From an uncultured Burkholderiales bacterium (GTDB lineage: Bacteria; Pseudomonadota; Gammaproteobacteria; Burkholderiales; Burkholderiaceae_C), in NCBI GenBank assembly GCA_903935585.1, contig CAIZSE010000013.1:1-34307 (forward strand): a stretch of DNA of 34,307 nt, in the 5' to 3' direction. The position numbers and the translations under genes are program-made. How positions within the stretch are numbered: the first letter of the stretch is position 1; each line of letters starts with the position of its first letter. Below the pieces are notes generated by a model that saw only the letters and a program-made list of their open reading frames with translations, was not told the DNA's origin and did no database searches. Shown here piece by piece: positions 22,867 through 28,198 of this stretch.

Positions 22867-23946
22867 CTACTTGGACGCGACTTTGGCGGCTGCCAGAGCA
22901 GGTTTCAGCAATTCAGGAAAGTCTTTGGCCATCGGTGCGCCATTGAGCGGCTTGTAGGCGCCCTGATGGCAAGTGGCGCAATTGAGCTTGGCCACATCGC
23001 CTGTCGGCCCCTTGCGGTGCGCTGGAAAGACCTCGGTCAAGGGCTCCATGTAGGTCAGGTTCAGGTCTCGCGCCATGCGGATGCCATGCCAGGCCGTCAC
23101 GCGTTGGGGCGGGCTGTTTTCCCAGTTCTGGAACGACTGGGTGTTATGGCAATAGGTGCAGTTCACGCCCAACGATGTCGACATGTGCGTCATCAACCCA
23201 TAAGTCCATTCGGCTTGCTTGATCGACTGCCGGTTACCCGAAGGCAAAGCCGTAGGCCCGTTGACGCGGATTTTTTGATCGCCGAGCAAAAACGGCGTGA
23301 AGGGATCGTTGGGCAGCGAGGACAAGTTGACCACTGGCGAGGGTTCGTTTTGTCCTGCCTTGTCGCCCATGAAGTTCGAACCATAGGGTTGTGGGTCAGA
23401 CTTGAACCAGATCGCATTGGGCACGGGCTCGCCGCGGTGGCAGGTGTAGCAGGTCACGCCGGTCTGGGCCACATGGGGCTGCCAGTCAGCGTTGATGTGC
23501 TGCGTCATCTCGACCATGCGGCGCGCCACCACCTTGGTGTATTTGCTGTCGTCTTCAAAATTGGGCAGTTGATGGCAATAGGCGCAGCCTTCCTTGGGTG
23601 CAACCCAGTTGGTCATGGAGACCATGAGCCGGTTGAATTCGCCCACGCTCAGATCACCCAGCACCTTGACGTTCTTGTAGGCTTGCGATGCCTTGGGACC
23701 ATCCGAGCCCGGTGAAGGGATCACCACGGGCGGCTGGTTTTTTTCGGTTTTGACTTCAAGCAGACGGGCGTTGTAGACCTGCACCATGCCCGTGCCCCGA
23801 TAACCGCTTTGCACAGATTCCGGACTGGGGCGCTCGCAACCGGCCAGCACAAGGCCCATGAATGCCAAGCCCAAGGACTTGAGCAAACGGCCAGCCCAAG
23901 CGGAGTTCAGCCCCGCCTTGTGGATGTTCAGAGTGTGCATGCTCAT
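22867..23946 (-). CDS. pufC: reaction-centre tetrahaem cytochrome subunit
   Basis: A 359-residue lipoprotein. The signal sequence ends in the lipobox LVLAGC (Cys37, site of lipidation). Four CxxCH haem motifs lie at residues 121-125 (CAYCH), 166-170 (CYTCH), 263-267 (CTYCH) and 323-327 (CATCH). Methionines upstream of the motifs supply axial ligands in the family. It re-reduces the photo-oxidised special pair on the periplasmic side. The start overlaps the pufM stop (ATGA). All four haem sites are intact. Confidence 0.96.
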
Positions 23947-24920
23947 GGCTTGGCTCCGGTGCTCAGCGCGGGATCAACCATCGCTGGGAATATTTCTGGG
24001 TAAGGGGGTGCCACGCCATGCTTGATGGCCCACAGGTACCAGTTGTCCACCACGGTGCCCGTCAGCAAGATGCCAATGCCACCGGTGATGGGGCACAACA
24101 CGGCAAACCACCAGGCCCAGCGGTGAATCGATTCCATGGTCGCGTTGAAGCCCATGGTCCAGCGCCAGAACAAGGCAGCCCGCTCGGAGGCTGTCCCGCG
24201 GTCGGTGATCTGCTCGATCTCGCGCTCACCACCAAAACGGGTGACCGCCAAAATGGTGGCACCGTGCATCGCAAACAACAGAGCTGAGCCATAAAGAAAC
24301 ACGATGGACAGCGCATGGAACGGGTTGTAAAACAGGTTGCCATAGCGCAATGAAAACGCTGCTGTCCAATCGAGGTGGGAGAAGATGCCGTAGGGCACAG
24401 CCTCACCCCAAGAACCCATCAGGATCGGGCGAAACAAGCCCAACACCAGGAAAAGCCAAATAGCCGCCGCAAATGCCCAGGCGACGTGTGTGCCCATGCC
24501 CAACTCGACCGCACGGCGGTAAGTGCGGACCCACCAGAACATGATGGATGCCGTGAGGAACAAGCCCACGATCAGAAACCAGCCGCCTTGGTTAAGAGGT
24601 GGCATGCTCAAGCCATAACTGGGCGGTGGTGGCTCCAGTGACAGCCAGAACAACTGGCGCACAAACTGGATCGGGTCGTAGTTGACCGAGGCCAACATGT
24701 TCATGCCGATCAGGGTGAAGGCGATCATGCCGAAGACGAGCGAGGCCAGCCCCAGCCCCCCCAGATAGATGGGCCCCAGCTGGGCATTGCCCAGCTTGCC
24801 AACCCAGTAATTGATCAGGGGTTGTCCGGTTCGCGGGCTGTTGCCGTGTCCGAGTTCTACCCCTAGGTGCACCGGACCCACAGCTTGCACCGTGGTGAAC
24901 AGGTTTTGATAGTCGGCCAT
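23943..24920 (-). CDS. pufM: photosynthetic reaction centre M subunit
   Basis: A 325-residue five-helix reaction-centre core subunit. Characteristic parts are [69 protein letters not shown] with the special-pair and iron-binding His residues, and [23 protein letters not shown]. It pairs with PufL to bind the special pair, bacteriopheophytin, quinones and the non-haem iron. GAGGAGTACAGCGA precedes the start. Order pufL-pufM-pufC is standard. Confidence 0.97.
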
Positions 24921-24969: not shown

Positions 24970-25806
24970 TCAGACGGGCCACTGGGACCAGATCGGCATG
25001 TTCAACCACCAGCTCCACCACTCGGGCCAGCCACGGCTCCAGAAGGGGCCACTGAGCACGATGCACAGGGCGCTGAACAGCACGGCAGCCAGCGCAAGAA
25101 ACAAGCCCAGACGGTGGATGCCAAGGGTGCCGATCGAATAACCAATGATGTCGCGGAAGAACGTGTCTTCGTGCTCGGGTGTTTTGACGAACTGGCCAGG
25201 CTGCGGATTGGTGGACGACAAAATCAGACCACCGTGCAGCGACAAGGCAAACACACTGGCAAAGAAGAAGCTCACGGCAATCATGTGTGCCGGGTTGTAG
25301 TGAAAGTGCAGGTACTGGTAGCCCACGTTGGACACCCAGTCAAGGTGGCTGTAGATGCCGTAGGGAAAGCCGTGTCCCCAGGCGCCCATCAGCACTGGTC
25401 GCACAACCACCAAAGTGACATAGGCAGAGATGGCCACACCAAAAGCCACGGGCACATGAAAGCCCATACCCAGCTTGCGGCAGATCTCGACCTCGCGCAT
25501 CATCCAGGAGCCGAACGCCCCAATCGCGCATACCGTGATGAGCTGCCACAGGCCGCCTTCCATCAGGGGCGCAAAGCGCAGGCCATACGACAGATCAGGC
25601 GGTGCGATGCTGATCTGCCAGATGTTCCAGGTTGGGCCTTGTGAGGCACCCCACAAAATCAGGGCCGTACCCAGGAACGAAAAAAACAAGGTTGTGACGC
25701 CGAAAAACCCAACGTAAAAAGGACCGACCCAGAAGTCGAACAAATCGCCACCCAGCAGGGTACCACCGCGAACGCGGTACTTTTTCTCAAAACTCAGCAT
25801 GGCCAT
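24970..25806 (-). CDS. pufL: photosynthetic reaction centre L subunit
   Basis: A 278-residue five-helix subunit: N-terminus [34 protein letters not shown], central [59 protein letters not shown] and [15 protein letters not shown] with the conserved His ligands. Together with PufM it forms the photochemical core. Either ATG at 25806 or 25800 could be used; AGGAGG lies upstream of both. It is separated from pufA by a structured 83-bp gap with two hairpins. Confidence 0.97.
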
Positions 25807-25835: not shown

Positions 25836-25899
25836 CAGATGCCGCATTGAAACGGGTTCAATGACAGCATCTGGATGACAAGTCCTGAATCAGGACTTG
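25836..25899 (-). other. tandem hairpins between pufA and pufL
   Basis: The first hairpin on the transcript pairs CAAGTCCTG (25879-25887) with CAGGACTTG (25891-25899) and includes the pufA stop codon in its loop and stem. The second pairs CAGATGC/GCATCTG (25836-25842 with 25867-25873) and, after a small internal loop, CATTGAA/TTCAATG (25845-25851 with 25857-25863). In Rhodobacter, intercistronic hairpins at this place protect pufBA mRNA from 3' decay and so raise LH1 over reaction centre; the same role is inferred here. Confidence 0.75.
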
Positions 25900-26099
25900 G
25901 GCGCGGCCAGCGAAGCCACCGCCGTCGGCAGCGGCGAGTTTTGCGCCGATGCCGCTACCGGTTTTTTCGCACCGTCAAGCCAGTTGAATTTGTTGGTACT
26001 GAGCAAGATGAGGTGAATCATCGCGGCCAGCCCGAACAAGAAAATACCCTGCAGCACCATGGCACGCAAAGGGTCGTACAGTCGCCAAATTCTCCACAT
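25890..26099 (-). CDS. pufA: LH1 alpha polypeptide
   Basis: A 69-residue LH1 alpha chain: [20 protein letters not shown] at the cytoplasmic side, the bacteriochlorophyll-binding His in [11 protein letters not shown], and Trp at His+11 (NKFNW), the residue that hydrogen-bonds the acetyl group in B875-type LH1. The C-terminal tail after DGAKK is extended ([23 protein letters not shown]) and low in complexity. AGGAG lies upstream, overlapping the stop of the preceding 74-residue ORF. The start is 10 bp after that ORF rather than directly after pufB. Confidence 0.96.
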
Positions 26100-26109
26100 G
26101 GTGAATCTC

Positions 26110-26334
26110 CTAAATGATGTGGGACATGAAGGTGTACACCGCAGCTTTCACGCCTTGGCTCATGCTCTTGGCATCTTCTGCGCCGGGCAACAGATCCCGC
26201 CAGTGAACGCCGACCAGCTTGGCCAGTACGACGACCACGAACAGACATCCAAAACCGATGAGGAAGATGGACCAAAATGCCGGGGATTCATCCGCACGCG
26301 AATGGTCCTCGTTGAGGTGAGTTGTGTTTTGCAT
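26110..26334 (-). CDS. unknown 74-residue single-span protein between pufB and pufA; LH-beta-like
   Basis: The gene sits inside the usually adjacent pufBA pair. It has its own ribosome-binding site (GGAG nine bases before ATG). The protein has a polar, acidic/His-containing N-terminus (to about residue 18), one membrane helix ([20 protein letters not shown]), then VHWRDLLPG and an amphipathic C-terminal helix ([18 protein letters not shown]). Aligned by eye without gaps to the LH1 beta chain encoded next door, it shares F, G, V, V, L, A, W and R over 28 positions, but Lys replaces the bacteriochlorophyll-ligand His (VLAK for VLAH), and the second beta His is absent. A diverged, pigment-free beta-like or PufX/gamma-like subunit is possible; function is not known to me. 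Confidence 0.85.
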
Positions 26335-26378
26335 GACAGTGACTCCGTCAATCTATGGGTGAAAAAACAGGCTCTGAA

Positions 26379-26522
26379 TCAGAACCAGGGACGCCACGCC
26401 CAGACCAGGATGTGGGCCAGTACAGCGACTGCTGTAAAGCCTACGGTGCCTTGCATCCAGTAGTGGTGGAACTCCTGGGCTTCCTCATCGGTAAGTCCGG
26501 AAATTGATGTCTTGGTTGACAT
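26379..26522 (-). CDS. pufB: LH1 beta polypeptide
   Basis: A 47-residue LH1 beta chain: [19 protein letters not shown] at the N-terminus, the bacteriochlorophyll-binding His in AVLAHILVW, and the C-terminal WAWRPWF with Trp at His+9, as in B875-type LH1. AGGAGC lies six bases before the ATG. It is preceded by a 44-codon ORF that fills the gap to bchZ and is followed, unusually, by the 74-residue ORF before pufA. Confidence 0.97.
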
Positions 26523-26534
26523 TTTTTGCTCCTG

Positions 26535-26669
26535 TTAACGAGGCCTTGCGACCCGGGGTGCGCACAGCCCGCGCAGATAGGCATCCGCAGCCAAAGGCCA
26601 CGACATCCTGTGCAAGGCAACGACCGTGTCGGCACCTGCGTGTTGATTCAATGTCAGCAAAGCTTTCAT
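26535..26669 (-). CDS. possible 44-residue ORF between bchZ and pufB
   Basis: An ATG overlapping the bchZ stop (GCATGA) opens a frame of 44 codons ([20 protein letters not shown]...) that ends 12 bases before the pufB start. It occupies the place where pufQ lies in Rhodobacter, but it has no membrane helix and does not resemble PufQ. The coupling-type overlap and exact fit to the gap support translation; lack of any recognisable domain and the GC-rich composition argue caution. It may be a leader peptide, a degenerate pufQ or chance. Confidence 0.35.
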
Positions 26670-28198
26670 GCTGCGACCCCCATTCCCAGCTCTCGGCTGG
26701 CGGCATTCACATGGGCTTCAGTGACTTCGTCTTGGCCTTCGGCCTGCGACAGTTGCTCGGCCTGATCGCGCAAGCGCTTGGCCGCAGAAATCTGCACCAA
26801 CACCGGCTGGCTTTGCACCACATCGCGCAGGCGCTGATGGGCCTGGTCTTGCCAGCTGGCATTGGGGGCCACCACACCACGCGCGGCCGTGGCCTCGACC
26901 TTGTCCATCTCGGTGCCCAGCGGCAGGATGTGAAACAACGCGTCAAACAGTGCGTTGCAAACTTCTTGCACCACATAAGTGGCACCGCTGTAACCCATGA
27001 ATGGCGTGCCGGTATGGCGGCGGATGATGGCGCCCGGAAACGAAGCCGGAATGAAGGCTGCCCGCATCGGGCTGCCGCCGGATATTTCACTCAGGTACAT
27101 GCGTTCGTTGTAGCTGCCAAACATGATCAGCGGGGTTTGGGTTTTGACCAATTCGCGCACGGTCACGTTGTCGGTCTTGTTGCCTGCCGTGCGTGAAACG
27201 CTGAAGCGACAAGGCAAGCCCATTTCGGTTTCAAGGAAATTTTTCAGGCCACGCGCATAGGTCTCACCGGCCACCACCGCAAAGCTGGCTGTGGCAAAAA
27301 AGTCTTGTGTCACCGAGCGCCACAGATCCCACATGGGCTTGAGGGTTGTGTGCTTTTCACGCTCGATGAAAGGCTCGGGGTCGAGGTTCAGCAACTCACC
27401 CAGCTTGCGCAGGAAATTAGTGGTGCTGTGCAGCCCGATGGGGGCCTGCAGGTAAGGACGCTCCAGCGCCTCACACAGCATGCGGCCAAACTCGCGGTAC
27501 ATGCAAATGTTCACATCGGCCTCCACCAGGCGCGACACATCGGCCAGGTGGCTGCCCAGCGGGAAGACCATGTTGACCTCGGCACCAATGCCCTGCACCA
27601 GACGACGGATCTCGGCCAGGTCGCTGGCACTGTTGAAGGTGCCATAACAGGGGCCAATGATGTTGACACGCGGCTTTTCACCAGCGGGCCGTTCGTCAAA
27701 GGGCTTGCGCGCAGGCACTTTGCGCAGGCCGTATTCACTCCACAGCCAGTACATCGCGCGGTTGGCGCACTGCCACTGGTCTTCGTCGATGGTGCGTGGC
27801 AAAAAGCGCGCGATGTTGGTGCCCTCGGGTGTGACGCCGCCGCCGATCATCTCGGCAATCGAGCCTGTCACCACCACAGCGGGCAACTCGGGGTCCAGGG
27901 TGGCGTGGGCACGTTTCATGGCGCCTTCGGTGCCTTCGCGACCCAATTGTTCTTCTGCCAGCCCGGTCACCACAATCGGCAATTCGTGCGGCGGCAATGC
28001 ATCGGTGTAATGCAGCACCGAGGTCACGGGCAGGTTTTCACAACCCACCGGGCCATCGATGACCACTTGCAAACCCTTGATGGCGGTGAAGACATAGACC
28101 GCCCCCCAGTAACCGCCTGCGCGGTCATGGTCCAGGATCAAAGGCGACTTCGCTTTGGGCAAAGTGTTGGGCGCTGGGCTTTGAGTCGTGTCGCTCAT
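26666..28198 (-). CDS. bchZ: chlorophyllide reductase subunit Z
   Basis: A 510-residue nitrogenase-like subunit. Together with BchY it forms the catalytic component reducing the C7-C8 bond of chlorophyllide a towards 3-vinyl bacteriochlorophyllide a. Recognisable stretches are [58 protein letters not shown], with the Fe-S ligand Cys in GPVGCE, then [18 protein letters not shown], and the later [20 protein letters not shown]. The start overlaps the bchY stop (ATGA). Length is normal. Confidence 0.96.

Follow-up and report, generated by a model that had tools for sequence, protein, structure and literature searches.

What kind of protein is encoded by a small gene lodged between pufB and pufA, the genes for the beta and alpha polypeptides of the LH1 antenna? 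The window, which is the whole stretch of DNA analysed here (34,307 nucleotides from an uncultured Burkholderiales bacterium), carries on its minus strand a Limnohabitans-type puf operon with the gene order bchZ, pufB, ORF74, pufA, pufL, pufM and pufC, where ORF74 is a 74-codon, ATG-initiated reading frame that occupies the space between pufB and pufA, with 10 bases separating its end from the latter. A GGAG motif stands 8 bases 5' of its ATG, as in its relatives, which confirmed the original prediction of an ORF with its own ribosome-binding site at this place, and one copy was found in the source genome. The features of the region are the following:

26666-28198, minus strand: bchZ, named by position and likeness
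26379..26522, minus strand: pufB, short LH1-beta of 47 aa with C-terminal WRPWF (PF00556, NF040862)
26370-26386, minus strand: terminator-like hairpin overlapping the pufB stop (one found versus 0.9 in shuffles; also present in locus L159)
26343..26346, minus strand: ribosome-binding site GGAG of ORF74, read from the sequence
26110..26334, minus strand: ORF74, a probable 74-aa LH1-beta-like paralogue (homologues, synteny, profiles, dN/dS)
26191..26286, minus strand: predicted transmembrane helix of ORF74, residues 17-48 (AlphaFold2 and alignment)
26218-26220, minus strand: Lys39 of ORF74 at the position of the beta His (alignment; W45-R46 as in beta)
26113..26196, minus strand: C-terminal tail of ORF74, residues 47-74, beginning LLPGAE (conservation, dN/dS, tail-only hhalign)
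25890..26099, minus strand: pufA, LH1-alpha (PF00556, NF040861)
24970..25806, minus strand: pufL (Photo_RC match)
23943..24920, minus strand: pufM (Photo_RC; PDB reaction-centre M chains)
22867..23946, minus strand: pufC, multihaem cytochrome subunit (assigned by its position and CxxCH motifs)

Two other elements were observed in the region. A strong palindrome occurs at the pufA stop (window 25880-25898, minus strand), and a stretch of ~65 bases located 5' of pufB (window ~26541-26606, minus strand) hardly varies among 31 Limnohabitans-like loci, whichever codon position is considered. Because of this invariance the stretch is probably non-coding, despite a 44-aa ORF running across it, and it is probably a leader, promoter or processing element; it gave no Rfam match at E ≤ 1, and its fold was no better than those of shuffles.

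A reading frame between pufB and pufA was already known. Excerpts of PMC12817894, which cites Nagashima 1994, describe in Rubrivivax gelatinosus an ORF2 upstream of pufA without assigned function, remark on its missing central His and compare it with PufA-type polypeptides only. ORF2 occupies the same operon place as the window ORF74, and its likeness was tested by sequence in loci L064, L065 and L067. In this regard, the gene had been presented as unexpected, which holds against textbook operons only, an ORF at this place being already in print. What would be new, as judged from the sequence comparisons below, is its identity as a beta paralogue and its relation to tailed betas, neither of which was found in the open-licence PMC literature among the matches listed; the terms pufB and pufA are absent from the main text of the Rhodoferax antarcticus genome paper (PMC5374385).

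A protein search returned 90 homologues of ORF74 at E ≤ 1e-3, of which 84 are 74 residues long, several labelled as 'light-harvesting complex 1 beta chain' (JGI) and others as 'hypothetical protein'. Scanning species genomes yielded 97 relatives, of which 80 were kept for their loci; their titles include Limnohabitans, R. gelatinosus (L064, L067), R. benzoatilyticus (L065), Methylibium and Piscinibacter. One record, a MAG titled Akkermansia muciniphila (L015), carries a Limnohabitans-type puf operon and is probably mislabelled or a mixed bin. In the fetched loci pufB was found upstream in 79/80 and pufA downstream in 80/80, the sole locus with no recognised pufB (L078) being one whose sequence starts 39 bases before the match. 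Moreover, dN/dS was 0.099 in 33 distinct Limnohabitans-like sequences, compared with 2.4 and 2.0 in the shifted frames of the same relatives, which together with the synteny rules out a chance ORF. By way of comparison, the values were 0.029 for pufB (27 sequences) and 0.007 for the first 50 codons of pufA (28 sequences). Split by parts in the 33 close relatives, dN/dS of ORF74 was 0.236 for residues 1-18, 0.092 for residues 19-46 (the membrane span) and 0.016 for residues 47-74 (the tail). A second, more diverged clade of 14 sequences gave 0.242 overall (0.388, 0.208 and, for the tail, 0.159), and three Rubrivivax sequences gave 0.251, a value resting on few changes. In this line, the mean share of the commonest residue across genera (83 sequences) was 0.35 in the N-terminus, 0.57 in the membrane span and 0.73 in the tail. 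These patterns show that the tail is the most conserved part of the predicted protein, under strong purifying selection. A functionless duplicate of pufB, be it a relic or in decay, which could be suspected from the loss of the His and the variable N-terminus, would have to be squared with the dN/dS of 0.099, the still lower value in the tail and the maintenance of the gene in 87/103 operons; we give it practically no credit, and decay as a pseudogene is refuted by the selection observed. The earlier suggestion of a conserved, subunit-like gene is supported by synteny and purifying selection, and the conservation between pufB and pufA that it proposed to look for in relatives extends to those 87/103 Burkholderiales operons and to R. 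gelatinosus.

The relationship with beta had initially been drawn from the adjoining pufB product, to which the membrane span aligns without gaps with 8/28 matches (F, G, V, V, L, A, W, R) and a His to Lys replacement, a description that is accurate. Neither Pfam nor NCBIfam matched the window protein at E ≤ 1, its neighbours matching the LHC, pufB and pufA models, and single sequences from 41 family members matched Pfam LHC (PF00556) in 0/41 cases; in a wider set 15/79 did so at E ≤ 1, with a best value of 4.4e-6, in a range that unrelated membrane families attain as well (1e-5). A profile of the 41 members searched against all PDB chains (E ≤ 1) matched LH1-beta chains, namely 8z81_B (E 6.8e-14, ungapped over residues 10-63), 9m8m_B (6.7e-11), 7xxf_B and 6z5s_2. 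There were 37 matches at this threshold, the last two being antibodies and the typed remainder beta, several described just as 'alpha/beta subunit', and none of the 37 was named as an alpha chain, PufX, protein W or gamma. The five aligned beta matches all retain the His, and no solved structure containing ORF74 was recognised in the PDB, the best matches being His-bearing betas.

Direct comparison of profiles with hhalign was done with 124 ORF74 rows (some of them near-identical), 84 short beta, 74 extended beta, 98 alpha, 5 PufQ and 7 PufQ-like sequences. The extended betas, such as those of L244, L280 and L240, have 27-28 residues after WRPWx, and the chains of PDB 8z81_B and 9m8m_B look like members of this kind. 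Over the full length ORF74 scored 99.3% against extended beta (E 1.4e-19), 92.9% against short beta (E 5e-8) and 0.28% against alpha, on which grounds an alpha paralogue was rejected; reversed-profile controls stayed below 0.2%, except for PufQ-like (1.7%). The homology with extended beta is ungapped and comprises both parts of the protein: the ORF74 core alone gave 98.3% (0.9% reversed) and the tail alone 97.4% with E 1.4e-11 (0.25% reversed), the core against short beta reaching 96.4%. A recent copy of the adjoining pufB was rejected because extended beta fits ORF74 better than short beta does. These comparisons therefore point to a beta derivative nearer to the tail-bearing kind, and in all likelihood ORF74 would be an LH1-beta paralogue descended from a tail-bearing beta. 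The original idea of a beta paralogue is in this way supported by both the PDB profile search and hhalign. With the neighbouring short LH1-beta (pufB, NF040862) the protein has in common the core helix and the W-R at its C-terminal end, but the short beta has the His and no tail, whereas ORF74 shows the reverse. Extended LH1-beta, on the other hand, keeps the His and is followed directly by pufA, with no ORF74, in 12 Burkholderiales operons.

The tail had been described as absent from beta, which is true for the adjoining short beta but not for the related extended betas, which carry a homologous tail. The likeness can be read in the letters themselves when WRPWLPGSEGYTSMYEGIKAAVYNVVPYAFMG (extended beta of L244) and WRPWLPGAEGYTSMLDGVKAAANTITPYMMS (extended beta of L280) are set against the ORF74 tail of Rubrivivax L064. 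Two AlphaFold2 predictions placed the membrane helix at residues 17-48 in one case and 14-47 in the other, followed by a C-terminal helix (residues 59-73 or 58-73), with pLDDT of 79-89 only over residues 21-40, 51-62 in the tail and a mean of 63-64; the second run, with 79 alignment rows, was no better than the first. The amphipathic character initially ascribed to the C-terminal helix is weakly favoured in the window tail, its moment of 0.304 being reached by 7.6% of shuffles. Alignment, dN/dS and AlphaFold2 agree on a layout with one helix, a conserved C-terminus and a variable N-terminus, and homology suggests that the protein adopts the beta topology, with a cytoplasmic N-terminus and a periplasmic C-terminus.

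Would such a protein bind pigment? The window ORF74 has Lys at the ligand position, as do its close relatives, and the original prediction took this residue as a feature of the gene, although Lys is a local variant only and Gln is the commonest residue across relatives (56/76). In the 76 genome-derived sequences counted (another 7 of 83 are gapped at this position), the remaining residues are T in 5, K in 4, L in 3, A in 3, S in 2, and G, C and H in 1 each, the sole His-bearing homologue being L175. Gln can ligate chlorophyll in other proteins, for which reason we consider ORF74 probably, rather than provenly, pigment-free. The pigment-free character proposed for it from the start is likely, the His being replaced in nearly all homologues, and is weakened by a Gln that may bind pigment and by the one homologue that keeps the His.

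The distribution of tails among operons offers a further view of the protein. Reaction-centre genes were found in 64/399 genomes of a family sample and in 48/399 of an order sample, 44 of the latter being new; together these are 108 genomes, whose puf regions were compared, the window being used for its own genome. A readable pufB was present in 103/108 (G575, G740, G814, G907 and G1056 were excluded), and pufB and ORF74 were grouped by motif searches, six regions missed by motif being read by eye, with L267 classed as short pufB plus ORF74. In two loci, L153 and L214 (G740), pufL and pufM are present, but pufBA was not recognised upstream, nor did the genome give a beta-like match at E ≤ 1e-3. 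A short pufB followed by ORF74 was found in 87/103 Burkholderiales operons, an extended pufB (27-28 extra residues) without ORF74 in 12/103, and a short pufB without ORF74, accompanied by a PufQ-like ORF of 75-90 aa between bchZ and pufB, in 4/103; extended pufB and ORF74 occurred together in 0/103. A PufQ-like profile, with those four sequences among its rows, matched exactly those 4 of 103, the next E value being 0.98. Moreover, the gap between bchZ and pufB measures 207 bases or less in 79/87 ORF74 operons and in 11/12 extended-beta operons, which is too short for a PufQ-like gene; among the other nine, four (all with ORF74) have too little upstream sequence to judge. The search for PufQ-like proteins came up empty in all 12 extended-beta Burkholderiales operons. 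Counts and gap lengths together indicate exactly one tail carrier in 99 operons, with 4 undecided. A quick tree of PufL+PufM requires 8 changes among the three states, 3 of them forced by supported branches for ORF74; an independent-pairs (tree-corrected) test of complementarity went in the expected direction but, with only 3 supported pairs, carries no statistical power. The rule is restricted to the Burkholderiales sample and fails elsewhere: in 19 operons from outside the order, which include L155, L156 and L158, an extended beta coexists with a PufQ-like ORF in 8 (L300 included), and in 3 a short beta is accompanied neither by ORF74 nor by a PufQ-like ORF. Counting PufQ-like proteins as tail carriers is the weakest step, which may perhaps hold, their tail scoring 88.6% against extended-beta tails and 5.6% against the ORF74 tail (hhalign). 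The PufQ-like ORFs recorded were:

between bchZ and pufB, across various groups of proteobacteria: L155 (1578-1823), L156 (1604-1858), L158, L180, L243, L246, L249, L292, L294, L299, L300, L301 and L306

As a group (12 sequences), these ORFs are related by profile to extended LH1-beta (98%); some keep the W-R and L155 alone keeps the His. A search with a single PufQ-like protein gave 1 match, and their score against PufQ was 47% only. PufQ itself may be a beta derivative.

The same proteins raise the possibility that ORF74 is the Burkholderiales counterpart of PufQ, steering bacteriochlorophyll synthesis or delivery and forming no lasting part of the core complex; in excerpts of PMC5725709, the Rhodobacter PufQ acts on ferrochelatase, to which it binds. 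ORF74 shares the size class and layout of PufQ as described in partial sources (variable N-terminus, one helix, conserved C-terminus), PufQ-like proteins share the layout and resemble it in profile (96.7% with 7 sequences, 98.2% and E 3e-14 with 12 sequences of several classes, 97.5% when pooled with PufQ), and in the Burkholderiales sample they stand in exactly the 4 short-beta operons without ORF74. Unlike ORF74, however, they lie elsewhere in the operon, have mostly lost the WR-LPGAE motif and sometimes sit beside an extended beta. The place of the PufQ gene, between bchZ and pufB, is not that of ORF74, and Rhodobacter-type PufQ, represented by only 5 sequences, scored 0.9% against it. Identity with the PF05398 PufQ family was rejected, with no match in G000, G107 or G459, none among 15 families for the 41 members and none in the best 25 of 39 families for the 79-member set. 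Furthermore, the 12 extended-beta operons that lack ORF74 showed no PufQ-like protein either, and the hhalign score of ORF74 is 106 to extended beta versus 54-71 to PufQ-like. Altogether, a PufQ-type role in biosynthesis or assembly is the main rival to the reading that we prefer, possible though rather improbable.

The expected amount of the protein bears on another alternative. Median Shine-Dalgarno (SD) energies in 79 loci were -8.5 kcal/mol for pufB, -7.6 for ORF74 and -7.3 for pufA, against a mean of -2.8 in random stretches; medians are given because one failed pufB energy distorts the mean, and a few start codons were wrongly chosen (one of these a 34-codon case). The site of ORF74 is weaker than that of pufB in 47/79 loci and than that of pufA in 36/79. 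In Roseateles depolymerans, excerpts of PMC10037100 report an ORF74 between pufB and pufA on their major 1-kb transcript, the three genes topping the list of those lost in a sigma-factor mutant and changing most under starvation; judging from place and length alone, this ORF74 very probably belongs to the same family. Location on the pufBA message and a ribosome-binding site of similar strength suggest that the protein is made in quantities similar to those of alpha and beta, and not as a single regulatory copy. Through the window hairpin after pufB, the levels of ORF74 and alpha could fall below that of beta. As a general device such hairpins found no support: in 92 loci the sequence following pufB shows no unusual degree of structure (mean energy -7.8 versus -11.0 kcal/mol for random stretches).

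These data speak against a once-per-core subunit that opens or closes the ring to leave a quinone channel in the manner of PufX or protein W. A pigment-less homologue of the ring polypeptides could be a natural chain terminator, and a review, in its accessible part, describes open rings with single extra helices. PufX, protein W and protein U/Y are, like the predicted helix of ORF74, single-helix accessory polypeptides of core complexes, with none so named among the PDB matches. They are encoded at other gene places. One copy per ring is at odds with the strong ribosome-binding site and the pufBA message, and extended betas would place a tail on every subunit. Ring capping or quinone gating, both put forward in the original prediction, is not specifically supported and looks unlikely; taken as a whole, that prediction is partly supported. 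The resemblance to LH1-gamma of Blastochloris or the gamma-like polypeptide of Rhodopila would be one of function only, as extra polypeptides of the LH1 ring; the latter, in the partial source, has 22 residues and is inverted, unlike ORF74, and no PDB match carried such a name. Less likely still is a transient assembly chaperone or insertion factor, pairing with nascent alpha until the beta-bacteriochlorophyll replaces it: the gene lies directly before that of alpha, to which a beta-like helix could bind, yet such a factor has no need for a conserved tail and nothing specific favours it.

The reading that we prefer, to which we grant about an even chance, is that ORF74 is a tail-carrying, probably pigment-free beta paralogue working in trans within the LH1 core complex or during its assembly. 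The two jobs of an ancestral beta would have been divided between two proteins, the short pufB product retaining bacteriochlorophyll binding and ORF74 retaining the C-terminal tail and giving up the His. ORF74 would insert by its one helix beside alpha/beta and join the core complex in trans, where its tail, packed on the periplasmic side against LH1-alpha, the reaction centre or the cytochrome PufC, would stabilise or shape the ring. A structural role is favoured over a PufQ-type one because of the closer likeness to beta, the place on the pufBA message and the absence of the gene where beta has the tail. The origin is well supported by the profiles, and the function is the part that we infer.

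A broader extension, rather doubtful for the moment, would see betaproteobacterial LH1 as composed of alpha, a short pigment-binding beta and a many-copy, tail-carrying, pigment-free beta, with PufQ-like proteins and perhaps PufQ as further pigment-free beta derivatives. If true, this three-polypeptide reading would give PufQ an origin. The architecture of RC-LH1 complexes bearing ORF74 looks untouched, because no chain in the PDB was recognised as a member of the family and the nearest solved reaction centre comes from neither Limnohabitans nor R. gelatinosus; among PDB PufM chains, 9m8m_M is the nearest to that of the window and also to that of R. gelatinosus, and is identical to neither. 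The beta origin proposed here would account for a reading frame that, according to partial sources, has lacked an assigned function since 1994, and predicts an extra LH1-type polypeptide in R. gelatinosus. This species is a genetically tractable model. Moreover, operons that carry the tail in cis on beta and those that would carry it in trans on ORF74 may offer a natural series for probing the role of the LH1-beta tail.
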